A DNA stretch of 24,333 bases from a virus: positions 1 through 24,333 of the IMG/VR virus record IMGVR_UViG_3300017783_000205. The stretch is one strand, 5' to 3'. A program made the translations under genes and the position numbers. The notes under the pieces are model-generated. The model had not been told where the DNA came from, searched no databases, and saw only the letters and a program-made list of their open reading frames with translations. Within the stretch, counting starts at the first letter, position 1. The number at the start of each line of letters is the position of its first letter. Shown one piece after another: positions 1-23,791 of the stretch.

Positions 1-597
1 ACCACCAGAATTGCCCCTAACTGAACGTTGACCCATCCAATAGATGGTATCAAATACTCTCCAATTAGGTGCAATAAATCTTTGTAGTGTGGATGTTTCT
101 TCTAGGAATAATTTTTTACTAGATCCTAAATAATCATCATTTTTTAATAGTTTTTCTATAATTGCAGATGTTTCTTGGTCTTTTTTGAATAGAACCTCAC
201 TGTTTCCAAATACATTAATTACTTCATTTTTAATAAACTCATCAGTTGTAGCAACTACTTTATACATTTCCGTGTTGTCATTAACACGGGTCCTATCTTT
301 AATTGCATAAGATCTAAAAGTATAAGTTCTCTTTAATACACTACCACTGATTCTCATCGTGAGAGGTTCTGTGCCCGTCAAGGCACCAATCAAACCACCA
401 TTATCTTGGAATACAATTGACGCTTCAATACCTGGTGAAGTAATAGATTCATAAATTTCCCATGCCATAACATAAGCACTGAGATCAGAAGCACCAGTAT
501 CAGTCGTAAGAACCTCACCATCTCTAGAGATATTGACATATAGTTCAATATCACCAAGTGTTTCTCTTTTAATTGTCTTGTACGATTCTTTACTCAT
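1..597 (-). CDS. Baseplate hub-like structural protein, 5' part (truncated by window edge)
   Basis: An open frame starts at ATG 595-597 and runs off the left edge after 199 residues, so the C-terminus is not visible. The ATG overlaps the stop of the giant protein upstream (ATGA), which supports this start. The visible part is soluble and beta-rich. A segment near residues 45-60 reads WEIYESITSPGIEASIVFQD, and a later one reads FIAPNWRVFDTIYWMGQRS. This pattern, a 'YESI..P' strand followed by an aromatic 'R.FDTI.WM' segment, resembles gp27-type hub proteins of contractile tails. The position just downstream of tape-measure-like genes is also where hub genes normally lie. The hub assignment rests on position and general pattern; I cannot verify homology, and another baseplate protein is possible. 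Confidence 0.6.
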   Translation of the reverse strand, partial: MSKESYKTIKRETLGDIELYVNISRDGEVLTTDTGASDLSAYVMAWEIYESITSPGIEASIVFQDNGGLIGALTGTEPLTMRISGSVLKRTYTFRSYAIKDRTRVNDNTEMYKVVATTDEFIKNEVINVFGNSEVLFKKDQETSAIIEKLLKNDDYLGSSKKLFLEETSTLQRFIAPNWRVFDTIYWMGQRSVRGNSGG

Positions 598-3500
598 GAC
601 TTAAGAAAATTGTTGAGTGGATTAACAAATGAGTTCATTCTATTTACCGTTGTTGGTGCTTGTGGAGGTAATACTACATTTGCACTACTGCCGCCACCAC
701 CACCACCTTGGGGTTGTTGCTGATTGAGTGATGATGCAACCTGTTGATTGTTTATTTCCATATTTGCCGCTAATTGAATTGCAGCACCTGTTGCACTCGC
801 CTGACCATCTTCACTTTTTGCCATTTCAGCATTTCTGGCAGCAGTTGCACCAGACATAGTAGAAGAACTTGAACCAGAACCAGCAGGACCAAAGTTCATT
901 GGCGTAATGTCTGGAGCACTAAACTTATTTGCAGCAATATGATCTCTTGCTTGCTGTTGCAATTTAACCATTGGAAGATCTGATCCTGCCATGTTAGCAA
1001 TAGCATCTGCTGGTGATCTCATACCATGACGTTCTTCTGCAAACTGATCAGTAGCACCTTTGATTTTTGTAACGGATCCTGCAAATTGACTTAAATCAAA
1101 TTCTGCTGTTGCAGATTCTGTATCCGCTCCTGCATTAGCATCACCAGGAACTGATCCAGTAGCACTACCTTTAATATTTGCTTTTGCAGCAAAGTTTTCA
1201 TTTATATTAGGATTGCCTGCGGTATTAAATACATGGTTTTTGAATTTAACAACATTAACATTCTGTGAAGCATCATTAAATGCTTCACCCGTTCTAAATC
1301 CCGTAGCAGAAACCAGGTAGTTAATTTGCTCGGAAGACATTCCAGAAGCTTCTAGTCTACCACGAAGATCAGCAGTATTTTGTGCAATTGCAAGTGCTTT
1401 TTCTGCTGCTGCTAATTGTGCTTTAGATCTTGGTTTCTTGATAGATCCATCGGTTATTGGTTGGAACTGACCAGATCCGTACATAACATCAGTAAGAGAT
1501 CCACTCTTTGCATTAAACATGCCAGCACCAACTGTACCACTTTGAATAAGACCACCTCTATTCAAGATTGCTCTTGCAACCAATGCCATACCCATTTCAC
1601 CCTCACCTTGTGCCTCTGCTAACATCATCTTAAGTAGAAGTTGTCTCTCAGCACTCTTGACTTCACCTTGGGGTGTATCATTAGGAGATCCATCACCACT
1701 ACCACCACTAGTTGCTTTACCTGAAGATATAAAATTAATGAACTTTTCATGTAATACTGATGGTGCGTTCATATGAACGTGCCAAGCACCAGGAGATCCT
1801 GTATCACCTTGACCACCAACAATTGTTCCTGCCTTAATATCATCACCCACTTTGAAATTTCCAAGTGAATTCATATGAGAGAACTGAATATTACCGTCTT
1901 CAGTTTTAAGTAGGATAGTATTACCGTAACCTCCAGATGAAGCTGTAGGATCTCGATATAGTACCTTTCCTGCTACTGGTGTAGGAACAGCAACGTCTTT
2001 ACCTGATGATGGCCAAGGATCTCCAGATGAAGTGTTACTAAAATTATAATCTTTTGGTGTTCCAACTGTATGGCCACCATAACTCATAGTCTTGTTTGCA
2101 GAATGATGATGTGGTGAGAAATCACTATAATTATATTGTTTACCCATCGCCAGCTTCTTAGATGCTCCACCTGGACCAGTGGAATACATCGCTTTAATCT
2201 TACCACCAGAAGCAAATTCTTGTAGTTTAGTTGTTCCAGGTTGCCGTTGCTTTACAGATCCAGAACCATGCGGATGATTCTCAAAACGACTCATATCGTT
2301 CATCTTTGCATCAGCACTTAGAGGTCCACCTTTTTGTTCTACTTGACCACCATTCATTAGTGCCCTTAGACCCTCTAAAAGTCCACCATGCGCTTTAACC
2401 TGAACATCTGGTTGAGATTTAAGTTGAGGATTACTGGGCATTCCAGCACCAGCAGTACCTGCACCAAATGTACCATCTCTACCATCACCACTGTTTGCAA
2501 TACTTTCGGTATCAGTTCCTGCAATCAGTTGTGATGCTGAGGTTGCAGTCATCGAAGGATCAGACTTTTGATTATAAAGATCTTCACCAAAACTATCCGT
2601 AGCACCTCGCATCTGCTGGATGGTAAGGAATTTAGACAAATCTAACTGCTTTTTCTCTTCTTCTTTCTTTTTCTTCTCATCTTCATCTTCATCGGGTCCT
2701 TTACCACCCAACATTCTACCTAACCAACCAAGACCAGGAACCCCCGAAAGTTTGTCCATTAAGGACTGCTTTTCTTCAGGTTTGTCGTCTAATAGTTTCT
2801 TCTGAATCTTACCTTCATCACTACCCGCTTCACGCATCCTTTCAGAAACTAATGAGTTGTGCTCATTTACTAGATCTCCAGAAGGAATTCCAAACATATT
2901 TTGGAATCCAATTTGAGTCTTGAGGGTTGCTTCCTTACCACCAGGGAACAAACTAGCAGTATTCATCAATGCGCCTTGAGCACCACTTCTAATAGAATCC
3001 CCAGTATTCTTCATGAAGTCTAGGATTTTGTTGGATCCTGATTCACCACCTTGTTCAAATCCTTTTAGATATCCACCACGTTGTGCCTCACCCATTCTCT
3101 TTTGAGTGAGATGAGGTTGTCTCCTGGTTGCAGGAGTATCAAATGGAATGACAAATCCGCCTTGCGATCTTTGTGCGACATACTCTAAACCATGACCAAT
3201 GAATGCAGTGGATTTACCACCGTCCATTGATACAGGATATCCCGATTGAGGACCATTAATCCAACCGCCGCCTGCTCTTTCAACTACACCACCCTGTGCT
3301 CTTTCAGGAGGTGTTTCTGTTTTAACAGGTTCTAGTTTTGGTTGTTCTCCTGTTGTTGCGGTAGGTACTGCTTTTGGAGTTTTATCTGCGTCTTCATCAG
3401 CAGCAGATGCCCCAGCATCATCTTTATTACCATTAACTGCAATTGCAGTAGCGACAATTGCTCCCGCAGCAAGACCAGCAAGAACTAATGGATGTTTTAA

Positions 3501-4193
3501 TAGTCTAAGTTTAGCACCCTTTAATCCTTTAGCAAATAACTTTAACGTAGTACCAAAGTCACTAATTAACTTGAGTGGATTACTTAACCATCGCATTGTT
3601 AGGAATAGTGTTCCTATACCAAGTATTGCTTGACCAAATCCTAATAGTTTATCCCACCAACTACTCTCATCAGATAGTAATTTATAAAGTCCTTCAATAG
3701 TATTAACAAAACCAAATTTGACTACATCGTATACAAATTTAGCAAATTTACCAATACCTTCAAGAATACTAGTTAATTTCTTCCTATTTGCTGGATCTGC
3801 CATCCATTTAAGGACAGACAACATAACAAATGTCTTAAACAGTTTACCAAATGCACCAAGTAAACCCTCTAAGAATCCTACTGCTTTACCTTTAGCAAGA
3901 TTATCTAAAAATCCTCCAAGACCACCCTTTTTCTTTTTTTGAGGTTTTGTATATTCTGGTTTAAAATTCTTTTCGTTTTTCTTTCGTTCTTCAATATCTT
4001 CAATACGAAGTACTTTCAGATCTGAAAGGATTTTTGCAATACCATTAACACTTTCACCGAGTCTATTAGTTGCAATTAAATTTGAAGTAGCAACTTTGTT
4101 AGATTCTTTTGCATTAGGATCAGTTTGTCCACCACTAGGAGGTGTAACAAATTTATAAAAGTTAATTTTAGATCCTTTTTGAACCGTTGCCAT
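594..4193 (-). CDS. Giant tail/baseplate protein with M23-like and SleB-like peptidoglycan hydrolase domains
   Basis: A protein of 1199 residues. Residues 1-60 and about 125-215 are paralogous to the upstream 1103-residue protein (shared ATNR, LKWM.DP.NR and NPL.LI.D motifs). A hydrophobic segment lies near 232-253, and low-complexity Gly, Glu and Lys stretches follow (500-515 is acidic/basic). Residues about 695-815 resemble an M23 endopeptidase: a Gly-Lys-Asp segment at 731-733, SHMNSL near 772, and WHVHM at 804-808. The usual first zinc His of HxxxD is Ser729. Residues about 848-1000 resemble a SleB/Hydrolase_2 wall hydrolase (LAEAQGEGEMGMALVARAILNR-type core, then GQFQP at 908-912). The C-terminus is Gln/Gly-rich. 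It is probably a virion-borne tail protein that helps open the murein layer during DNA entry. The start ATG overlaps the end of the upstream frame by one base, implying translational coupling. Whether this or its paralogue measures tail length cannot be decided here. Confidence 0.75.
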   Translation of the reverse strand: MATVQKGSKINFYKFVTPPSGGQTDPNAKESNKVATSNLIATNRLGESVNGIAKILSDLKVLRIEDIEERKKNEKNFKPEYTKPQKKKKGGLGGFLDNLAKGKAVGFLEGLLGAFGKLFKTFVMLSVLKWMADPANRKKLTSILEGIGKFAKFVYDVVKFGFVNTIEGLYKLLSDESSWWDKLLGFGQAILGIGTLFLTMRWLSNPLKLISDFGTTLKLFAKGLKGAKLRLLKHPLVLAGLAAGAIVATAIAVNGNKDDAGASAADEDADKTPKAVPTATTGEQPKLEPVKTETPPERAQGGVVERAGGGWINGPQSGYPVSMDGGKSTAFIGHGLEYVAQRSQGGFVIPFDTPATRRQPHLTQKRMGEAQRGGYLKGFEQGGESGSNKILDFMKNTGDSIRSGAQGALMNTASLFPGGKEATLKTQIGFQNMFGIPSGDLVNEHNSLVSERMREAGSDEGKIQKKLLDDKPEEKQSLMDKLSGVPGLGWLGRMLGGKGPDEDEDEKKKKEEEKKQLDLSKFLTIQQMRGATDSFGEDLYNQKSDPSMTATSASQLIAGTDTESIANSGDGRDGTFGAGTAGAGMPSNPQLKSQPDVQVKAHGGLLEGLRALMNGGQVEQKGGPLSADAKMNDMSRFENHPHGSGSVKQRQPGTTKLQEFASGGKIKAMYSTGPGGASKKLAMGKQYNYSDFSPHHHSANKTMSYGGHTVGTPKDYNFSNTSSGDPWPSSGKDVAVPTPVAGKVLYRDPTASSGGYGNTILLKTEDGNIQFSHMNSLGNFKVGDDIKAGTIVGGQGDTGSPGAWHVHMNAPSVLHEKFINFISSGKATSGGSGDGSPNDTPQGEVKSAERQLLLKMMLAEAQGEGEMGMALVARAILNRGGLIQSGTVGAGMFNAKSGSLTDVMYGSGQFQPITDGSIKKPRSKAQLAAAEKALAIAQNTADLRGRLEASGMSSEQINYLVSATGFRTGEAFNDASQNVNVVKFKNHVFNTAGNPNINENFAAKANIKGSATGSVPGDANAGADTESATAEFDLSQFAGSVTKIKGATDQFAEERHGMRSPADAIANMAGSDLPMVKLQQQARDHIAANKFSAPDITPMNFGPAGSGSSSSTMSGATAARNAEMAKSEDGQASATGAAIQLAANMEINNQQVASSLNQQQPQGGGGGGSSANVVLPPQAPTTVNRMNSFVNPLNNFLKS

Positions 4194-7100
4194 TACTTAA
4201 GTCTCTGTATAACTCTATTTGGAGCAGAATATGTTGTACCCCCGCCACCAGTATTTATCGGAGCAGGTGATCCTACAGGTACAAGTTTTGGTATCACTAA
4301 AGGAATTACAGAACCACTCCTCTGTTGCTTCTGCATTGTATAGTTTGCAGATGCTCCAGTCGTAGGTGCTAACATCTTAGCAGGAGCACTAGGAGATTTG
4401 TTTTCAGCAGGAGATACATTAGCAGTATACTTTCCTCTAGGTGCTGCCATTCTAGCAGGTTCCTTGCCAACAGTAGAAACAGGACCAGGAGAAATATTAC
4501 CACTAAATCCTTGAGGCAACACAGGTCCCCTTATAGATGCAACTTTTTGAATTGCTGGTTGCTGTAATGCAGGAGAAACAACTCCTGCAGAAGGTGTTGC
4601 CATAGACATTGCATTACTTCTTAAGTTATTAATATAACCTTGAGATTTATCTAATATTTTTTGATATTCGCTTTTCCTGGATTCATTTTTAAAATTATCA
4701 AGGAATTGTTTACGACCATATGTACTCTTACCTTGAGACTGTAAATTCAATAGACGTTGGTTTTCTACCTCAGGTAATGCTCCTCCAGAGGCCATAAAGG
4801 GAACAATATTATTCTGAAACCCTACAGTGTTATTATACTGGACATTTCCCCCTTTGTCAAATCCTGGAAGCATACCTAGAATTCTAGGAGAAACTTCAAC
4901 ACTCAGAGGAATAGATCTTGCAATAACCTCTTTAGCAAGTTTTAGCAACCCCATAGCGCCTTGAGGTTGCGCTTTCTTTGGTTCTGGTTTAGATGGTTGC
5001 TGAGATGCCCCTGAACCCTGCTGAGGTGCTCCTGAAGGGACACTGACGCTTGACAGGTAAGGAGCAGTCACACCCTTACCAGCAAGCAGATCACGAATGA
5101 CTGGACCTCTACGTCCTACCTGCGAATAATAGTCACTATCTTGTATCTCTACAGCAGCAGTTTTCCAGTCACCTACTTTTACTGCAGCAGCAAACTTGGG
5201 AAATTCTTTATAGAAACTTCCGCCCATATTGAAAGCAAGATCAATTAGTGCTGCTTTTTGTTGAGCATTACCTTTATGGTATCCTGGTATTGCCTTTGCT
5301 TGTGCTAGGTGCTTGTTAAAATCTTTATCGAATAACTTGTCTGCTTCTCCTTGACTAATTTTAGAATGTGGACTATAACCATCGCCAGGTTGAATCAGAT
5401 GACCATATCCAATTGTTGGATATCCTTTGCTATCATTATATGCATGATGAGCACCACCAACAACATTAGATCCTTCGTGGATCTTAATCATAGACTTAGC
5501 AAAACTGATCTCACCACCCGCTGCTTTTTTATCTAGTTCTTCAGGTTTTTTTGTAGTATCAACTTCATCAGTTAACTTATTACCCGTTATCATTCCCCAA
5601 AGTTCGCCCAAGTTAGGGAGTTTGGACAACACACCGTTAACCGAATCTAATGCACTCTTAAGACCAAGTTTCTCGAACATTGCGTTCTCGCCTTCTTGAA
5701 TGGCAGGAACAAAATCACGAGCAAGACTATACAGATCAAGACCTAATGCAATACCACCGAGAAGAGGTGCTGCTGGTCCGCCAAAAGCTGTAGCAATATC
5801 CAAGACACCAGCAGTACCTTCGATTAATGCACCAATACCGTCACCGTTTGCTGCTTTGTCGTATGCAAAGATTAAGTTTGCAATACCACCAATAACAGGT
5901 ATGATTGTTGCAGCACGTTTACCAAACTTTGATGACTGACCTAGAGCATTTTGTAAGGTAATACCTTTCTCTGATAGGAATTTAGTAATGTATTCATATC
6001 CTGGTATTTTCGCGATATTGTCGCGAATCATACCACCTACCTTTTTAAAAGTATCTATTACAGGATCAATAAATGGTTTAAGTGGTGTTATAAACTTTTT
6101 AGTAATAAACTCACCAGCACTTGCTTTGAGATTATTGAATGTATTTCCTGCACTTGCAGCAAGATTTGATCCAATCTGTCCTGCAGATTCGGTAGCACTG
6201 ACTACCTTTGCCCAGTTGGCCTTGGCACCCTTAGATAGATTATTATACTGTTGACCTGCCCACTCAAATCCATTTTGTACTGCAGAAGGGAATGATGTTA
6301 TACCCTTCTTTATCATTTCTCCGCCTTGGACTGCTCTTTTACGAACATCATCAACTAAATCATCTTTAACAAAACTACCAAAATCTTGTAGACCTGACGA
6401 AAGCCTACCGAAGAATCCTGGTTTTTTGGGTATAGGTGCTTCTAGAGGAGCAACGGCAATTTGCCCTGCGTCAACCAATTTATCTGTAAATGCTAGAGCA
6501 TTCTTTACACTTTTACCATCCTCAAGTCGCATTAAAAATGCCTTTGCAGCATTCTCGCCTTTTTCTTTAAGAACTTTTTTATAATTTGTTGCTGCTTCAG
6601 GACCAAAACTCCTGTATACTTCTTTTAATTTAAGACCTCGTTCAAAAATTGATTCGGCAGCTTCGGCACCGAATTTCTTAGTATTTTCTAAATATCGTCT
6701 TCCTGCCTGTTCGCCAAGTTCCCCAACAACCTGTGCTGCTCTTTTTTTACTACCCCGCCTTGCTGCTTGCTCAACTCCCTCAGCAATATCATCAGCAGCA
6801 CCTGTCTTTGGTTTGACCCTGCCGCCCTCACCAATAAAACTTAGTAATGATAAAATATCAGTAATCAAACTGAATGGATTCATTAGGTATTTTAACCCAA
6901 TGACACCAAGAATTACTTTACCGAGACCCTCTACCCTTTCAAAGAATGTAGAATCCTCTCCAAATAAACCACCAAGACCATCGAGTAGCGTTGTAGTTAG
7001 TCCAGAAGCAATCTCCCAGAGTTTACCAACTACAAATAAAGTTTTATCGACAAATTCTGTAAGTTGTTCTCGGTTTTTAGGATCCGACATCCATTTTAGT

Positions 7101-7504
7101 AGTTCTCTTGAGAGAACTGCACCGCCAAAAGACAACAAAATGTTGGTAATTGGACTTAAAAAGTCTGCTAAGAAACCAAAAGCACCTTTTGATGCCTTTT
7201 TAAGTTTACTGGTTATCTTAACTTTTGGTTTCTTCTTTAAATTGCCTACTTCTTGATTATCTTCTGCTGCAGAGTCGTTTTTTCTGCGTTCTTCTCTTCT
7301 TTTAAGGAGAGCATCTTTATCGTCTTGCTTATCTTTACTAACCTGAATTAAATTGAGATCCTTTACAATTAAAGAGATGCCATTAAGTGTGCCACCTATT
7401 CTATTTGTTGCCAGAACTTGCTTTCTGCCAGCAGCAATTTTCGGATCCTTCGTAGCAGAAGATCCTGGGTTGACAAATTTATAGGTATTCAGTTTGTTAG
7501 CCAC
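4193..7504 (-). CDS. Giant tape-measure-like tail protein with T4-type lysozyme domain
   Basis: A protein of 1103 residues starting at GTG 7502-7504, which overlaps the stop of the frameshift extension upstream. The N-terminal region (about 1-60 and 135-220) matches the downstream 1199-residue protein. Residues about 230-520 look largely alpha-helical and charged. Residues about 531-597 form a long hydrophobic Gly/Ala-rich segment of the kind found in tail tape measure proteins. Residues about 666-815 form a GH24 (T4-type) lysozyme domain. The E-D-T catalytic triad is visible as E677 (KIHEGS), D691 and T697 (DSKGYPTIGYGH), with D and T spaced as in T4 lysozyme. The C-terminal 280 residues are Pro/Ser-rich. 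In T4 the tail lysozyme is part of gp5; here it sits in a giant protein right after the chaperone-like gene, the usual tape-measure position. Tape-measure function is inferred from position, length and hydrophobic segments. Confidence 0.75.
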   Translation of the reverse strand: MANKLNTYKFVNPGSSATKDPKIAAGRKQVLATNRIGGTLNGISLIVKDLNLIQVSKDKQDDKDALLKRREERRKNDSAAEDNQEVGNLKKKPKVKITSKLKKASKGAFGFLADFLSPITNILLSFGGAVLSRELLKWMSDPKNREQLTEFVDKTLFVVGKLWEIASGLTTTLLDGLGGLFGEDSTFFERVEGLGKVILGVIGLKYLMNPFSLITDILSLLSFIGEGGRVKPKTGAADDIAEGVEQAARRGSKKRAAQVVGELGEQAGRRYLENTKKFGAEAAESIFERGLKLKEVYRSFGPEAATNYKKVLKEKGENAAKAFLMRLEDGKSVKNALAFTDKLVDAGQIAVAPLEAPIPKKPGFFGRLSSGLQDFGSFVKDDLVDDVRKRAVQGGEMIKKGITSFPSAVQNGFEWAGQQYNNLSKGAKANWAKVVSATESAGQIGSNLAASAGNTFNNLKASAGEFITKKFITPLKPFIDPVIDTFKKVGGMIRDNIAKIPGYEYITKFLSEKGITLQNALGQSSKFGKRAATIIPVIGGIANLIFAYDKAANGDGIGALIEGTAGVLDIATAFGGPAAPLLGGIALGLDLYSLARDFVPAIQEGENAMFEKLGLKSALDSVNGVLSKLPNLGELWGMITGNKLTDEVDTTKKPEELDKKAAGGEISFAKSMIKIHEGSNVVGGAHHAYNDSKGYPTIGYGHLIQPGDGYSPHSKISQGEADKLFDKDFNKHLAQAKAIPGYHKGNAQQKAALIDLAFNMGGSFYKEFPKFAAAVKVGDWKTAAVEIQDSDYYSQVGRRGPVIRDLLAGKGVTAPYLSSVSVPSGAPQQGSGASQQPSKPEPKKAQPQGAMGLLKLAKEVIARSIPLSVEVSPRILGMLPGFDKGGNVQYNNTVGFQNNIVPFMASGGALPEVENQRLLNLQSQGKSTYGRKQFLDNFKNESRKSEYQKILDKSQGYINNLRSNAMSMATPSAGVVSPALQQPAIQKVASIRGPVLPQGFSGNISPGPVSTVGKEPARMAAPRGKYTANVSPAENKSPSAPAKMLAPTTGASANYTMQKQQRSGSVIPLVIPKLVPVGSPAPINTGGGGTTYSAPNRVIQRLK

Positions 7505-7697
7505 TTGCTGCTTGCCTCTCCCTCATTCTTCGTTCTTCCTCTTTTAAAAAGTCTATTAGAAATTGAACATAAATCTCTTTTTCAAACGGGATCAATTCGT
7601 CAATGTATCGAATGTCCCATTTATGGTGATGCATCAAGGCAAAATTGCCCTCATAATAAGAACGAAGGTTGTTATGGAGGAGAGCTAGGCGAAAAAA
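7497..7697 (-). CDS. Frameshift-encoded C-terminal extension of gp26 (tail assembly chaperone-like)
   Basis: This open frame is -1 to gp26 and overlaps its last codons. It encodes about 64 residues that look like real protein: RLALLHNNLRSYYEG, then HHHKWDIRYIDELIPFEKEI and a charged tail rich in Glu and Arg. It runs to TAA 7497-7499, overlapping the GTG of the giant protein downstream. Upstream of residue 20 of the extension there is no ATG, GTG or TTG with a ribosome binding site. The only ATG would remove the conserved-looking first third. It therefore seems to be made as a gp26 fusion of about 299 residues by slippage at T TTT TTC. A short chaperone plus a frameshifted longer form located before the tape measure gene is the known arrangement in lambda (G/GT) and P2 (E/E'). 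The link to this system is inference. Confidence 0.65.
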   Translation of the reverse strand, partial: FFRLALLHNNLRSYYEGNFALMHHHKWDIRYIDELIPFEKEIYVQFLIDFLKEEERRMRERQAASG

Positions 7698-7711
7698 GCC
7701 GACAATCCCTC
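7649..7711 (-). promoter_or_regulatory. Probable programmed -1 ribosomal frameshift signal at the end of gp26
   Basis: The slippery heptamer T TTT TTC lies at 7691-7697, in the correct phase of the gp26 frame, two codons before its TAG. A Shine-Dalgarno-like GAGGGA at 7706-7711 sits 8 bases upstream, as in dnaX-type sites. Ten bases downstream an imperfect stem can form between CCTC(C)ATAA (7672-7680) and TTATGAGG (7649-7656). All three classical elements are visible; the frameshifting itself is inferred. Confidence 0.65.
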
Positions 7712-8416: not shown

Positions 8417-8424
8417 TATTTATG
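8417..8424 (-). promoter_or_regulatory. Late-promoter-like element upstream of gp26
   Basis: CATAAATA on the minus strand overlaps the stop codon of gp54 and lies 22 bases before the gp26 ATG. It differs by one base from the T4 late consensus TATAAATA, and the identical octamer precedes gp48 on the other strand. Activity is inferred from motif and position. Confidence 0.5.
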
Positions 8425-9268
8425 CGAACGACGCTGATGATAAGGGGAACCCAGATAATAACTGATTACCAACTTTACTTTCTAATTTATTTTTCTGTGT
8501 ACCCTGGTCTGTGGTGTCATCACCATCGGTGTTAGGTTTAGTCTGTATTGCAATAGAGGAAGAATCTAGAGTAGGATCAGTGTAGAATCTATATCTTTCG
8601 TAGTAGAATCCGACATTCATAGTCATTGTCTTTGCTTGATCATTAGACAATTGAATACTACCAATGTTATATGGGAACGCATTGTATATCTCCCAACACG
8701 CAGTCAATTTATTTACTGATGTAGGTGATTCCTGCCCTTTTTTCTTTCCTGTTTTATACAATACCCGATCACCACCAAAAGGTTCCCATTTAAAAATTAA
8801 AACTCTAGGTGCAACATAGTCAACATAATATCCGCAATGCTGACTAGCATCATTAGAGCATCTTGCCATCCAACGCTCAAAGAACAATCTGATTTGTTGA
8901 GAAGAAGGACACATAAAGTTCATACTAATATTACTGAATGTCGGATTTGTGACATACTTATATGCCGAACCAACATTAGTTACCTGTCCTGTTCCCATTT
9001 GTTTACTAGGGAGATTAACATCTCTAGCATAATAATTAATCAGATCTCTCATATTACCCTTACCACTATTGAGAGAATCTTTTGATTGAATATCCCCAAT
9101 AAACTGTGGAGGGGTTTTCTGCATTACGGTGGGAGGAACGATATAAACTGAGAATAGGTTTGTATTTGCAGGATAGTTGTCGTCACTCTTCATCATACTG
9201 ATGAATTGCTGCACAGAGTTATACTGTGCCGATAACCCGTTCTTGATTCTAGACTTCTGCGATGCCAT
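8420..9268 (-). CDS. gp54: Baseplate tail tube initiator gp54-like
   Basis: A protein of 282 residues. T4 gp54 caps the baseplate hub and starts tail tube polymerisation, and shares the tube fold of gp19 and gp48. Visible tube-fold features are a conserved 'YARDVNLPSKQM' stretch around residue 83, a 'FMCPSSQQIRLFFERWM' helix around 115-130, and a C-terminal beta segment 'TMNVGFYYERYRFY'. The N-terminal helix (SAQYNSVQQFISMM) and the length agree with gp54. The ATG overlaps the gp4 stop (ATGA), so the two genes are translationally coupled. A gp19-type tube protein is the main alternative, but that is usually shorter. Confidence 0.8.
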   Translation of the reverse strand: MASQKSRIKNGLSAQYNSVQQFISMMKSDDNYPANTNLFSVYIVPPTVMQKTPPQFIGDIQSKDSLNSGKGNMRDLINYYARDVNLPSKQMGTGQVTNVGSAYKYVTNPTFSNISMNFMCPSSQQIRLFFERWMARCSNDASQHCGYYVDYVAPRVLIFKWEPFGGDRVLYKTGKKKGQESPTSVNKLTACWEIYNAFPYNIGSIQLSNDQAKTMTMNVGFYYERYRFYTDPTLDSSSIAIQTKPNTDGDDTTDQGTQKNKLESKVGNQLLSGFPLSSASFA

Positions 9269-10716: not shown

Positions 10717-11664
10717 ATGACTGCTTATTTTTCACAATTTCCAAACGTATATGTCGGTATGGGAGTCAAAGATGACTCTCCTATCGAATATCAACTTGCT
10801 AAGAATTTATTCCGAAGACTTGAAATTAGAGACGATATCGAAAAATATATCACTCTATTTGAAAAGTATACTGTGCAAGAAAATGAAAGTCCTTCAATTA
10901 TTGCAAATAAAGTATATGGCGATCCTTTCCTAGATTGGACTATTTTGTTGACAAATAATATTAATGACTTTTACACCGAATGGCCTAAAAGTCAGTTTGA
11001 ATTGGAATCCTACGTTAGAAACATCTATGACACAATTGAAGATGTTCATCATTGGGAAACTTTAGAGGTTTTTTGGCCAGATATTGATGACGAGGTAGTA
11101 TTGATGCCAGGTGGTATGGAAGTGAAAGAAGATCATAGGACAATGCTTCCAGATGGTCAAATGTTATCAAAAACGCAGTCAATTGTACCTATTACAAATT
11201 ATGAGCACGAATCGTATTTGAATGAATTGAAAAGAGTGATTAGTTTACCATCTATTGGAATTGTTCAGAATATGGTGCAGGAAATGGAAGATTTACTTGC
11301 ATACAAATCCCACCCTGAACTGGATGTGGAAAATAACAAGAAAACTGAAATTTCGATCGTTGGTAGGTTCTTGGAAAATACAGGTTATATCAGTCCTGTT
11401 GTTGCTTCCAATAGTAACAATTCTAGTACCCAATCTGAGGTTAGTTTTGATAATGGTGCAGACAGTGTAGTAAGTGGATTGGTCGGTATTGTCGTTGGAA
11501 CTGCCTCATCTACTGCAACACCAACTGCCACTACAGGAGCAACTACCACTACCACCACTACAACAACCAGTAGCTCTAGCAGTAGCAGTTCTTCTAGCAG
11601 TTCTAGTAGTTCTTCTAGCAGTTCTAGCAGTTCTTCTGGATCGTCATATAGTGGTGGGTACTAA
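10717..11664 (+). CDS. gp53: Baseplate wedge protein gp53-like with long Thr/Ser tail
   Basis: A protein of 315 residues; T4 gp53 has 196. gp53 joins baseplate wedges around the hub. The N-terminal domain has the family signature: YFSQFPNVYVG, then FRRLEIRDDIEKYITLFEKY, then ESPSIIANKVYGDPFLDWTI (a LysM-like segment), then NINDFYTEWP. After about residue 250 the protein becomes low complexity: a run of Thr, then about 24 consecutive Ser residues, then GSSYSGGY. The Ser tract is coded by a mixture of AGC, AGT and TCT, so it is not a simple one-codon expansion. The extra C-terminal 100 residues are unusual and their role is unknown. An intergenic repeat and a hairpin follow the stop. Confidence 0.85.
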   Translation: MTAYFSQFPNVYVGMGVKDDSPIEYQLAKNLFRRLEIRDDIEKYITLFEKYTVQENESPSIIANKVYGDPFLDWTILLTNNINDFYTEWPKSQFELESYVRNIYDTIEDVHHWETLEVFWPDIDDEVVLMPGGMEVKEDHRTMLPDGQMLSKTQSIVPITNYEHESYLNELKRVISLPSIGIVQNMVQEMEDLLAYKSHPELDVENNKKTEISIVGRFLENTGYISPVVASNSNNSSTQSEVSFDNGADSVVSGLVGIVVGTASSTATPTATTGATTTTTTTTTSSSSSSSSSSSSSSSSSSSSSSSGSSYSGGY

Positions 11665-19066: not shown

Positions 19067-19289
19067 TAGTATTAATATTATCTTTTATACTATTTATTTC
19101 ACTATTCAGTTTATTGAGTATTTCTGCGGACAAATCTATTCCAACATTAATATAATCTTCATTGGCAGTCTCATCTAATAGGAAAACATCCATAGGATCA
19201 ACGATTGCATCAAACTCTAAGTCCATTCCGTTTGCAATCTCCTGTAACTCAGGTGTCATGTTTTCAAATTTAATTTTAGGTAGTTTCAT
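19002..19289 (-). CDS. Small acidic hypothetical protein
   Basis: A protein of 95 residues. The start MKLPKIKFENMTPELQ (ATG 19287-19289) overlaps the stop of the 1501-residue gene (ATGA); an earlier in-frame ATG inside that gene is not needed. It is acidic (DLEFDAIVDPMDVFLLDETANED) with a polar C-terminus. Its tail overlaps the next small gene. No family is recognised. Coupling to the large structural gene suggests a chaperone or a minor virion component, but this is only a guess from position. Confidence 0.65.
   Translation of the reverse strand: MKLPKIKFENMTPELQEIANGMDLEFDAIVDPMDVFLLDETANEDYINVGIDLSAEILNKLNSEINSIKDNINTNETQGYHQDSKENPEGCEETS
19091..19098 (-). promoter_or_regulatory. Possible late-promoter-like element before the 55-residue gene
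   Basis: AATAAATA on the minus strand lies 24 bases before the ATG of the 55-residue gene, inside the upstream coding region. It matches the T4 late octamer in seven of eight bases. Confidence 0.35.
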
Positions 19290-22200
19290 CTGTAAATAAT
19301 TGCTGAAGATTGACCGTATCCTGTGGCGTATCTGGTATTCCAAATTACATTATCGAACTGGGTAGCAGTAAGATCCAAGGATGAAATGATGGAGTTATTA
19401 GGATCTGGAAGAGGTAATGGGGTTCCTTTAATTTCTACAAATATATTGCAGTCTTCACCTTTTTTATCATAGAAACAAATTTTACTGTTTCCACGAATAC
19501 CATATCCACCATCGTTACCCTTGACCCTAGGTTTATATATTTGTGGTGTGACGATTGCAGATGTGCGGTACTTACCCTTTTCGATACTCAGATCTCTAGT
19601 AAAATTCATACCTGCAATTTGATATGTTCCCAAACCAGTACCTGCATAATCGGGATTGTCATCGTATTCTAGTTCCATTGTGACTTGTGCTCTACCTGAT
19701 CCAGTAACTTCAAGACTTCCATCTTGAAGCAGTCGAACTTCTATATTACTCAATTCCGAGACTCTTGTCAAGTTAAAAGCATAACCTCCAGGATTATTTG
19801 CCCAAACGTTATGACGATTCGATGATATTGGTAGGTTCTCTACTGTCCCAATAATTTTATACAGTCCTTCTTTCAATGATAGATTTTTTGTTTTAGAAAC
19901 TAACGTCCCATCAGTATAGACTTTCTTATTAACATATGCTCCGTTCTGATATCTTTGTAAGGTAAGTGTTCCTATATTATCTGCAGCATATTCCAATTGA
20001 TAATTTGTTGACTCGGGAACGATGAATATCCATTCTTCCTGGTGAACAGTTCCTGTTAGCATTTTCTGCTCAGGATAAACTGCAAAGTCATTTAAGAAAG
20101 GATACTGTTGCCATCTTTGATGTGGTCCTACTCGAACCCAAGAAGGTGATTCGGCAAAATCATTACACTTTCCACCAAAGCAGATCTTCATATACCATCC
20201 ACCAGGATTAGATCCCCAATCATATGCTTTGTTTTTATATCCACCATTTGCTCTAATAAAACCACCACTATTATTCTTAACTTTGACAACCATATCATAT
20301 GTGCCTGCCCTAAGATTGTCCAACGTCACTCTATATGGTTCTGCTACACCAGATACTACCATTCCCTGTTTCTTATTCTTGAATATTTCATTACCATCAA
20401 AAACAACACTCAAACATCTATGATCAGCACCCCATACAAATTCATAATCACCTTTACTGGGAATAACAATCTCATATGACACCTCTTGAACTTCATCAGG
20501 TAACGTACACACCTCTGGATTAACCCATACTGCATACTTATTTCCCTCTTCAGTCCATAAAGATCTGGATGTAATTGTACTCTGGACTATTCCAGGTGTA
20601 AGTCTAATAGTTCCATTCGCATCATCATTTTTTTCATCCCGTAGTTCCAGCACCCGATAGACACTACCACCACTGCTGCTATCACGACCACCATATGATT
20701 CAAACTCTACTGTGATATCCTGTTGTGCATCGTCCGTGTATCTGTTTTCTGGTGTAAATGTATACGTCCAAGTCTTCCCTGAAGCAGGTAGTTCTCCCGC
20801 CCAAGAGTTTATCCACCATACAGAGTCGATGTCCCCAGCAGTATTATTGTCATTTTTCACAGTATAAACTGGCCACACACTGAAAGTTACTGTTACTCCA
20901 TGCCTGATTACAGTAAATGTCTGTTCTTTATCACGCATTTCCTCTCCTTTCTTATCATAACGTCTAGGCCAATACTGTAGACCTTCTTTAGCGCGAACTT
21001 TTACACTATCATCTAGGACAAGCAAATCCTCAAAACCTTTAGCAGTCATTCTCAAACGAGTTCCTGATGGTTGATCACCAATAATAATTTTTTGAACTGC
21101 TTTACCATTCTTGTCAGGGTTCTCATTAACTTCAAATCTAAACATGACCTGTTGTGTACCCGATCCGCCAACAACGAGATTACCATTTGCAGCAAACGTA
21201 GCTGTACCACCACTTAGATTCGTAGCAGTCAAGTATGCATCAATCCCTTTGTATCCATCATTAAATCTAAGTTGTGTCTGGTTAAGACCTCTATCAAAAC
21301 CACCATCATTTCCTATGATTGTAGTGGTGTACGTTCCAGGCGATACCACAATGAATCCTTGATCGTTATGCTCTTCTTCAGTTCCTCTATTAAATGTTAC
21401 TGTAGATGATCCCCCACCTTCACAATCAATTGGTTCTTTCAATTGCGCCTTTTTGAATGGGATATTTATGGGGTTCAAATCGTTCCATACAATAGGATAT
21501 TCACCTGGTCCAGGAATAGTAATCGATTCGGACTGTTCTCCTACTTCCCCTCTTTGTTTAAAGGTGACTCCATTAACAACATCACCATTAGAAGTGACTC
21601 TTTGTACACCAGGGATACTAAAACTCATATCTGCCTGCTCACTACCATTAGGAACACTAATAGTAATCTTATTTACTGCTATGCCAGATGTAGATGGGTT
21701 ATCGTCCCATTCAAACTCCACTACAATATCACCAGGACTCGTAACCTTGAGGTTAAGATCACCATCAAATTCTGCAGCACCAGAAGACTCGCCATTTAGA
21801 ATGCTCAGTTTTGCATTCGTATCAAATCCGTTAGCTGGATTGTCATCAAATTTAATCTGAGTGGCACTAATTCTCTTCTCAACGTTTTTACCTAATGGCA
21901 AATCGTAATCAATTTGATACGTCTGTTTCTTCAAATTATTGAGACGATACTTTTTATCTCCGTCCTCACCTTTTTGTGTAAATTCATATTTATCAGTACC
22001 CGAACCTAGTAATGCGGTGCTGGCGGTTTTGGGATTGTCATCCCATGAAAATGTCACTCCACATGCCCCCGAACCCTTTCCAGTTGCAATTAGTTTATTT
22101 CCATCTCTAGAGATACCAATACATAAATCATTCTCAGTGGTTTCTGTGCCTAGGAAAGACGTTACAGGATAAGTTAATGGTTCCGATAACTTAATCGGAG

Positions 22201-23791
22201 CACCTCTCTTTTCAGAACCATCTTTTTTATAAAATACAAGAGTTTTTATATTGACATCTGGATTAAAATTGAAGCATGAATTTCTCTCTTGAGTAGGGAC
22301 ATCAACATCAAAATCGAAACCGTCTTCAGGTAGAAACTTTTTTGGATAAGGGTAACAATCTCCTTTAGGATCAAGGCAAATTTCCCAATCTGGTGTATCT
22401 TGATCAGGATTTAGATATGTGAATTCACAATCCTTTTCACCTGGTTCATATTCATCTTTGCAGATCTGAGTATCGATAAAAGGAATACCAGGATCAAATG
22501 GATCAGGAAAATCAGGCCAACTAGTGTCATCATCAGGTGGTGGTTCGGTATCTCCTGGAGCAATGCCAGCGCAAGCAGTAGAAGATCCAAACTGATTAGA
22601 CATTGTTATACAGTACACTGTATCTTCTTGAGGTTCTACAAAGAAACAATCTCCTGTAGGAGACTCTGCACCAAAGTCTGAACGTACCACATCATCTGCA
22701 TTATCTGAAGAATAGCAGAGAACTGATTTGTATGGTTCTACATCAAAATCGTCTAGATCAGGTAGATCTGGAGAGTTATCATCGTCCAGTTCTGAATCTA
22801 TACAGTTCCATGCACCACTACTATTCCTAGGGGAATCATCTGCATCGGGATGAGAAACTGTTACTGAAATTCTATAAGGTCCACAATTAGGAAAATCCAT
22901 AGATGTATTCTGATTGCATGGCGTTGATACAAGAACACCATCAACAAATCTAGGATCGCACTCATCACTATCCTCTTCAGCACTACCATCATCAGGTTTA
23001 CCGACACCTATAATAGTTACAGTTGCTGTAGCAGTTTTTACATCTTCACCTGCACCATCTCCAGCACCATCTCCTCCATCTCCAGCACCATCTCCTGCAC
23101 CAAGTCCAGCATCAGAAACAGTAATTTGAAATGTGTTTGGACCAGGCACAGTGATGATATATTGATTACCATCAACTGTCTGAGGTGCAAAACCAGGTCC
23201 AGAAGAACCAACAACGGTAGTTGCATTTGGTGATGAATTCCAATTCAATAATACCTTCGTCCCTACTGGTGCAGAAGCACGAGATGCTTTTAAATTTACA
23301 GTAAGATCTCCATTTACACCATCATCTGATATTGGGAAAGGATCAACTATCCTATTACCAGCAAGATCAGTAATGTCCCAATCATAATTCAAATCTTCTA
23401 CTGGAATATCTGAGTTGGGTACGTCTACATTAAAATTTTGTAAGGCATTCGGAACAATGTTGCCTGGTCCAACGAGTTTAACGTCTCTAATTAAAAGACC
23501 AGAGGGATTATTACGTCTCTCATCATCAACTAGTTCTGGTGAATCTGGTATTCTATTTGGATCTACAGGTGGAAGTCTCTCGGGGGATGCATTAATATTA
23601 ATGATTGGAGGACCACCAATAAATCCATCGGGATAGGGATCTCCTTCAGGAATCGGTCCTTCTCTATATGGATATGTCTGTCTTCCATCATCAGGTTCAG
23701 GAGAAGTATCGCGAGCAACTGCTGGTCCTAGGGAATCAACCAAAGGATCGCAAACAGGTCCAAAATTGCCAGCAGGATAATACTTGGCCAT
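19286..23791 (-). CDS. Large virion structural / adhesin-like protein with repeated beta modules
   Basis: A protein of 1501 residues without signal peptide or membrane segment. The N-terminal 250 residues are Pro/Asp-rich with Ig/PKD-like strands (about 115-225), followed by a Gly/Ala/Asp linker (228-250). Residues about 275-510 are very rich in Asp and carry more than ten Cys. A module of the form G.L.V.GSG...V...FE.DDNP...G.A occurs at about 562-590, 675-712, 868-905 and 1356-1393. Domains near 1115-1210 and 1263-1345 share a 'YEFVWGAD/YQLEYAAD ... GTYDM/GLYKI ... NPGGW/NPGGYAF' plan, resembling carbohydrate-binding beta sandwiches. It is probably a tail-fibre-type or decoration protein. 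The ATG follows two bases after a hairpin with U tract, and no standard ribosome binding site is seen. Function is inferred from architecture. Confidence 0.7.
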   Translation of the reverse strand: MAKYYPAGNFGPVCDPLVDSLGPAVARDTSPEPDDGRQTYPYREGPIPEGDPYPDGFIGGPPIININASPERLPPVDPNRIPDSPELVDDERRNNPSGLLIRDVKLVGPGNIVPNALQNFNVDVPNSDIPVEDLNYDWDITDLAGNRIVDPFPISDDGVNGDLTVNLKASRASAPVGTKVLLNWNSSPNATTVVGSSGPGFAPQTVDGNQYIITVPGPNTFQITVSDAGLGAGDGAGDGGDGAGDGAGEDVKTATATVTIIGVGKPDDGSAEEDSDECDPRFVDGVLVSTPCNQNTSMDFPNCGPYRISVTVSHPDADDSPRNSSGAWNCIDSELDDDNSPDLPDLDDFDVEPYKSVLCYSSDNADDVVRSDFGAESPTGDCFFVEPQEDTVYCITMSNQFGSSTACAGIAPGDTEPPPDDDTSWPDFPDPFDPGIPFIDTQICKDEYEPGEKDCEFTYLNPDQDTPDWEICLDPKGDCYPYPKKFLPEDGFDFDVDVPTQERNSCFNFNPDVNIKTLVFYKKDGSEKRGAPIKLSEPLTYPVTSFLGTETTENDLCIGISRDGNKLIATGKGSGACGVTFSWDDNPKTASTALLGSGTDKYEFTQKGEDGDKKYRLNNLKKQTYQIDYDLPLGKNVEKRISATQIKFDDNPANGFDTNAKLSILNGESSGAAEFDGDLNLKVTSPGDIVVEFEWDDNPSTSGIAVNKITISVPNGSEQADMSFSIPGVQRVTSNGDVVNGVTFKQRGEVGEQSESITIPGPGEYPIVWNDLNPINIPFKKAQLKEPIDCEGGGSSTVTFNRGTEEEHNDQGFIVVSPGTYTTTIIGNDGGFDRGLNQTQLRFNDGYKGIDAYLTATNLSGGTATFAANGNLVVGGSGTQQVMFRFEVNENPDKNGKAVQKIIIGDQPSGTRLRMTAKGFEDLLVLDDSVKVRAKEGLQYWPRRYDKKGEEMRDKEQTFTVIRHGVTVTFSVWPVYTVKNDNNTAGDIDSVWWINSWAGELPASGKTWTYTFTPENRYTDDAQQDITVEFESYGGRDSSSGGSVYRVLELRDEKNDDANGTIRLTPGIVQSTITSRSLWTEEGNKYAVWVNPEVCTLPDEVQEVSYEIVIPSKGDYEFVWGADHRCLSVVFDGNEIFKNKKQGMVVSGVAEPYRVTLDNLRAGTYDMVVKVKNNSGGFIRANGGYKNKAYDWGSNPGGWYMKICFGGKCNDFAESPSWVRVGPHQRWQQYPFLNDFAVYPEQKMLTGTVHQEEWIFIVPESTNYQLEYAADNIGTLTLQRYQNGAYVNKKVYTDGTLVSKTKNLSLKEGLYKIIGTVENLPISSNRHNVWANNPGGYAFNLTRVSELSNIEVRLLQDGSLEVTGSGRAQVTMELEYDDNPDYAGTGLGTYQIAGMNFTRDLSIEKGKYRTSAIVTPQIYKPRVKGNDGGYGIRGNSKICFYDKKGEDCNIFVEIKGTPLPLPDPNNSIISSLDLTATQFDNVIWNTRYATGYGQSSAIIYR
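23042..23110 (-). repeat. Short tandem repeat coding a Gly-Ala-Gly-Asp linker
   Basis: Repeated 12-base units of the type CCATCTCCAGCA (plus strand) code for GAGDGAGDGGDGAGDGAG in the 1501-residue protein. Units are nearly identical in DNA, so slippage could change their number. Confidence 0.75.

Follow-up and report, generated by a model that had tools for sequence, protein, structure and literature searches.

Evidence that cyanophage gp26 and 'gp51' may be the short and long products of one gene with a −1 frameshift

Paired tail assembly chaperones in described phages

Frameshifting is a well-known route to two tail chaperones in long-tailed phages. In lambda, a shift to the −1 frame shortly before the short gene ends yields the long form gpGT beside the short form gpG, the long form gains a C-terminal domain, and the frameshifted gene lies ahead of the giant tape measure gene. 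The tape measure is bound by gpG and gpGT alike, and the tube protein is brought in by the extension; according to the same 2016 review, T4 is the exception to an otherwise conserved G-T frameshift (PMC5009743). In P2 the pair is E and E+E', the slippery site is a poly-T sequence (T6G; PMC3931495), and the −1 extension has no ribosome binding site. In the Vandenendeviridae and Andersonviridae, the TAC gene has a conserved T-rich slippery motif (GTTTTT), and its −1 extension has been misannotated as a separate gene (PMC12846349). A review counts both gp26 and gp51 of T4 among the hub assembly chaperones, with gp51 being required and absent from the particle (PMC3004832). However, the same source cites T4 genetics as placing gp26 in the baseplate hub, which fits poorly with a chaperone of purely transient action. 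For T4-like phages more generally, a passage in one paper cites poly-T slippery sequences as known in TAC-N genes (PMC12846349), and papers citing Vladimirov, Gautam and Davidson (2022) refer, in the citing passage, to some T4-like phages in which a short gene is accompanied by a fused long gene (PMC10885494). A literature search on frameshifting in cyanophage tail assembly chaperones returned no title or abstract on a cyanophage site; the cyanophage frameshift proposed here was probably anticipated in part by the 2022 work on T4-like chaperones. The title of that work (Virology 566:9) reportedly stresses a mechanism other than frameshifting for the T4-like TAC genes.

The locus described here lies in a window of 24,333 nucleotides (the whole stretch of DNA that was analysed; IMG/VR record IMGVR_UViG_3300017783_000205) from a cyanobacterial virus that is a distant relative of T4. 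Judging from the sequence, we consider it very probable that gp26 and the −1 frame that follows it form a single gene, whose two products would be short and long tail assembly chaperones, with ribosomal −1 slippage giving rise to the second. The predicted arrangement resembles that of lambda, with a −1 shift close to where the short gene ends, an added C-terminal domain in the predicted long form and a giant gene behind the frameshifted one. It differs in that no sequence relation to the lambda proteins was found, the fold is that of the T4-family baseplate hub, and the extension is about 64 aa. The poly-T site and the −1 extension devoid of a ribosome binding site recall P2, but the site here is T6C in 174/184 loci and the gene order is not the same; to our knowledge, P2 E/E' and gp26 have no sequence relation. 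As in the Vandenendeviridae and Andersonviridae, a T-rich motif is conserved and the extension is annotated as a gene of its own, although both the motif and the phage families are different. The main effect of recognizing this arrangement would be the correction of hundreds of annotations, and it offers a directly testable frameshift site within a group of viruses that is among the most abundant in the ocean.

The heptamer at the end of gp26

The short form of gp26 (236 aa; 8395-7685, minus strand) belongs to the T4_baseplate family (PF12322, E 1.5e-75; PHROG 150, E 9.6e-86). Its 3' end reads GAG GGA TTG TCG GCT TTT TTC GCC TAG, with the TAG at 7687-7685 and the slippery heptamer T TTT TTC at 7697-7691 on the minus strand, in gp26 phase and one codon ahead of the stop, so that the phasing noted in the initial annotation holds. 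The same heptamer occurs nine times in the whole window, against 11.3 expected. As this count is not above chance, the mere presence of the heptamer was dropped as evidence, and the case is made from its phase and its conservation.

We collected 261 loci from relatives, which were reduced to 184 non-redundant loci at <90% nucleotide identity. A phased T TTT TTN was present in 184/184 of these (N being C in 174, A in 6, T in 3 and G in 1), and the 0-frame stop lay one codon past the heptamer in 174. The initial annotation had named, as a case that would count against it, relatives without a slippery heptamer that keep the downstream frame with its own start; relatives without the heptamer were absent from the non-redundant set, and the single exception among the 261 loci (L252) has a gp26 whose C-terminus also appears deleted. 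The gp26 family with this arrangement diverges down to about 24-35% amino acid identity, and the arrangement recurs in phages of Vibrio (ValKK3), Aeromonas (65 and phiWae14) and Stenotrophomonas (DLP6 and Yut3), as well as in Rhizobium (TTTTTTG), Pelagibacter, Methylophilales and Nitratidesulfovibrio phages and phage SRB7757.

Could the heptamer be kept for the sake of the protein, or by codon bias? As such an explanation would have it, the FF pair that gp26 carries at its C-terminus is highly conserved. However, control FF pairs elsewhere in the same genes were written T-TTT-TTC in only 1/209 cases, and in seven loci the second heptamer codon encodes Leu, which turns FF into FL and leaves the T-run in place. 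Furthermore, synonymous sites elsewhere are saturated (pS 0.73-0.80) and yet the heptamer is fixed, which indicates that selection acts on the nucleotides. Thus, a phased X XXY YYZ heptamer has been retained ahead of the 0-frame stop beyond any need of the protein. The invariant run of six T would also suit slippage by RNA polymerase, whereby mixed transcripts rather than slipping ribosomes would yield the two products. Efficient polymerase slippage usually takes a longer run than six T, and against this mechanism the run has exactly six T in 181/184 loci and seven in only three, with a fixed codon phase; the conserved elements flanking the site, described below, are marks of ribosomal slippage. 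We regard the polymerase explanation as extremely improbable, and ribosomal slippage on the heptamer as the preferred reading.

The −1 frame known as gp51

In the −1 frame, translation from the heptamer to a TAA at 7499-7497 (7697-7497, minus strand) gives FF-RLALLHNNLRSYYEGNFALMHHHKWDIRYIDELIPFEKEIYVQFLIDFLKEEERRMRERQAASG, an extension of about 64 residues. Fused to gp26 it makes a predicted long form of 299 aa with the junction AFF-RLALL. The initial annotation had described this frame as open and as lacking a start in its first part, which is confirmed: the first ATG, GTG or TTG in the window phage is an adjacent TTG and ATG (the L-M of FALM) about 20 codons past the heptamer, and no start precedes residue 17 of the extension. 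It had not recognized the sequence, which is in fact the known gp51 family (PHROG 634, 'baseplate hub assembly catalyst', E 8.8e-27). A tblastn search with the −1 frame found 483 phage records at E<=0.01, of which 461 are cyanophages by name. Where records annotate gp51, they give it as a gene of its own whose start is an internal Met or lies directly past the gp26 stop; others miss it. In the records that were inspected, gp51 lies in frame −1 relative to gp26 and starts where gp26 ends.

The −1 frame lacks any ATG, GTG or TTG ahead of codon 20 in 77/184 loci. Over codons 3-19 of these start-less loci, pN/pS was 0.378 in the −1 frame, and 1.28 and 1.49 in the other two frames; for comparison, it was 0.334 in codons 20-48 of the −1 frame and 0.466 in gp26. 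The start-less first part is therefore under purifying selection, and the selection on which the initial annotation's claim depended is clear across these 77 relatives. This also disposes of what was left of the protein and codon-bias explanation, namely that the −1 coding is a relic; that explanation is already contradicted by the heptamer conservation and the −1 selection, and we give it practically no credence.

The selection bears equally on the view taken in many of the records, that gp51 is a separate small protein with its own start, reached by translational coupling, whether this is an internal Met or an ATG immediately past the gp26 stop. Some loci lend themselves to this, as an ATG stands at −1 codon 5 in 72/184 loci and an ATG overlaps the gp26 stop in Vibrio phage ValKK3 and Rhizobium phage RHph_I34. 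However, independent initiation cannot make the conserved first part in the 77 start-less loci, whereas the remaining loci have a start near the gp26 stop. Even there the candidate starts are poorly equipped: the codon-5 ATG is preceded by a Shine-Dalgarno (SD)-like motif in 0/72 loci and, in 63/72, has all its bases paired in the predicted fold, and an SD-like motif precedes codon 20/21 in just 2%. A separate start would also leave the invariant phased heptamer unexplained, and T4 retains the extension fused to a gp26-like domain. Taken with this evidence, a separately initiated gp51 seems very unlikely, and we return to the extension as the C-terminal part of a frameshifted long form.

Elements flanking the site and the proposed mechanism

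The upstream element GAGGGA, which is Shine-Dalgarno-like, was read directly at 7711-7706 on the minus strand, 8 nt upstream of the heptamer, as the initial annotation had reported. In 84.8% of loci the interval 6-17 nt upstream of the heptamer contains an SD-like 4-mer, compared with 5.9% of same-phase control windows in gp26. At the GAGG site the Glu codon is GAG in 128 cases and GAA in 30, although the same genes use GAG for 28% of Glu codons overall (binomial p about 1e-43, a value that ignores relatedness). GAGGGA is thus a probable stimulator of frameshifting.

The evidence for a downstream structure is more uneven. The region 3' of the heptamer (7690-7640, minus strand) can fold into a bulged hairpin, as had been claimed, but the predicted fold is modest in the window phage, at −9.6 kcal/mol with a z of −1.49 against synonymous shuffles. 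Among the relatives, folding energy in 45-nt windows reached its minimum at 0 to +5 nt past the heptamer. RNAalifold, run over each clade, gave no shared fold; for this reason we claim no single conserved hairpin and relied on synonymous-codon shuffling instead. By this measure the downstream stretch had a mean z of −2.24, versus −0.32 and −0.46 for the controls, and the signal divided by clade, being −3.23 in most relatives and −0.86 in the start-less clade to which the window phage belongs. A hairpin is therefore likely to act as a stimulator in many relatives and is doubtful as one in the window phage; across the family, the site has an upstream SD-like element together with a downstream structure that is weak in the window's clade. 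In L084, L085 and L094 the ATG just past the gp26 stop sits within the predicted post-heptamer hairpin (P-SSM2: AGTATGGCTCA...TGAGTCATACT), a placement that is common among relatives with such an ATG.

We infer that most ribosomes would end at the gp26 TAG, giving the 236-aa short form, and that a minority would move one base back on T TTT TTC and continue into the 299-aa long form. Slippage may be aided by pairing of the upstream GAGG with 16S rRNA and, in many relatives, also by the downstream hairpin. The long form would then carry a helical C-terminal domain, the so-called gp51. Together, the short and long chaperones could hold the tape measure in solution and bring in the tail tube or hub. 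T4 would make the same pair from gene 26, as the short form, and gene 51, as the gp26-like fold plus the extension.

T4 gp26 and gp51, and the neighbouring genes

The comparison with T4 is the closest one available, as both halves of the long form have sequence homologues there (PF12322/PHROG 150 and PHROG 634). T4 gp51 matches PF12322 over residues 1-201 (E 3.9e-52) and PHROG 634 over residues 147-246 (E 1.2e-23). Thus, on this homology, a gp26-like protein and the same extension are naturally fused in T4 gp51. A profile built from the −1 extensions recovered gp51 of T4 and six relatives, as well as −1 frames of two Ackermannviridae; T4 gp26 was not found with this profile. The AlphaFold model of cyanophage gp26 is confident (pLDDT 91.8; the alignment behind it comprised the window protein and its relatives' loci only), and that of a T4-type gp51 (pLDDT 89.4) has a similar order of elements, followed by helices at 206-221, 226-230 and 234-248 after the gp26-like part. 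A viral-structure search with the gp51 model recovered gp26 proteins. It follows from this composition of gp51 that T4 appears to have one gene for the short form and another for the long form, which are separate, on opposite strands and involve no frameshift, whereas cyanophages would encode both forms in a single frameshifted gene.

The claim in the initial annotation that gp26 is a tail assembly chaperone with two forms is accordingly in keeping with what is known of its relatives. The best reading of gp26 and gp26-51 is as short and long tail assembly chaperones resembling G/GT and E/E', a role suggested by homology to T4 gp26/gp51 and by analogy with lambda and P2. Among solved structures, the window gp26 had no relative by sequence and no significant match in a fold search. 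The PDB entry of highest probability among the matches listed was the HK97 tail assembly chaperone (gp13; 2ob9, probability 0.47, E 1.4-1.5), which is not significant and may serve as a lead only.

In the Ackermannviridae, the extension was detected in the −1 frame of gp26 in Salmonella phage Matapan (L100, 1985-2080) and Erwinia phage Bue1 (L104, 1900-1990), with extension-profile E values of about 5e-6 and 9e-8, respectively. The site there reads GAA ATT TTC ATT TAA (Matapan) or CAG ATT TTC ATT TAA, which is not a canonical heptamer. It is conceivable that −1 frameshifting is ancestral and near-universal in the gp26 family, with T4 genes 26 and 51 derived by duplication and fusion and the Ackermannviridae slipping at a non-canonical site, but we hold this view tentatively, with doubt slightly outweighing belief.

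The gene behind gp26 encodes 1103 aa (4193-7504, minus strand) and has a lysozyme domain (PF00959, E 1.3e-13; PHROG 790); its GTG start at 7504 overlaps the end of the gp26 −1 frame. By its position, this gene is a candidate for the tape measure. It is one of two giant genes 3' of gp51 (window 594-7504), the first encoding the 1103-aa protein with its phage lysozyme domain and the second an 1199-aa protein with M23 peptidase and cell-wall hydrolase domains; a region at the N-terminus is common to the two proteins, with 29% identity across about 225 aa (E 1e-22). Upstream of gp26 lies a tail-tube-fold protein (8420-9268, minus strand). The initial annotation's assignment of a tube fold agrees with a match to the PHROG 45 tail tube family (E 9e-53), but it is not clear that this is the main tube protein, as the counterpart in Pelagibacter phage Mosig is annotated 'putative baseplate tail tube initiator', and we describe it as tube-initiator-like.

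Two further features of the window were observed. A wedge protein (PHROG 232) ends in a long low-complexity Thr/Ser run (11470-11664), which is unusual for a baseplate protein. Finally, the C-terminal part of a 1501-aa protein (19286-23791) matches PHROG 773, 'major head protein' (E 1.5e-169), and this is probably a large virion protein.
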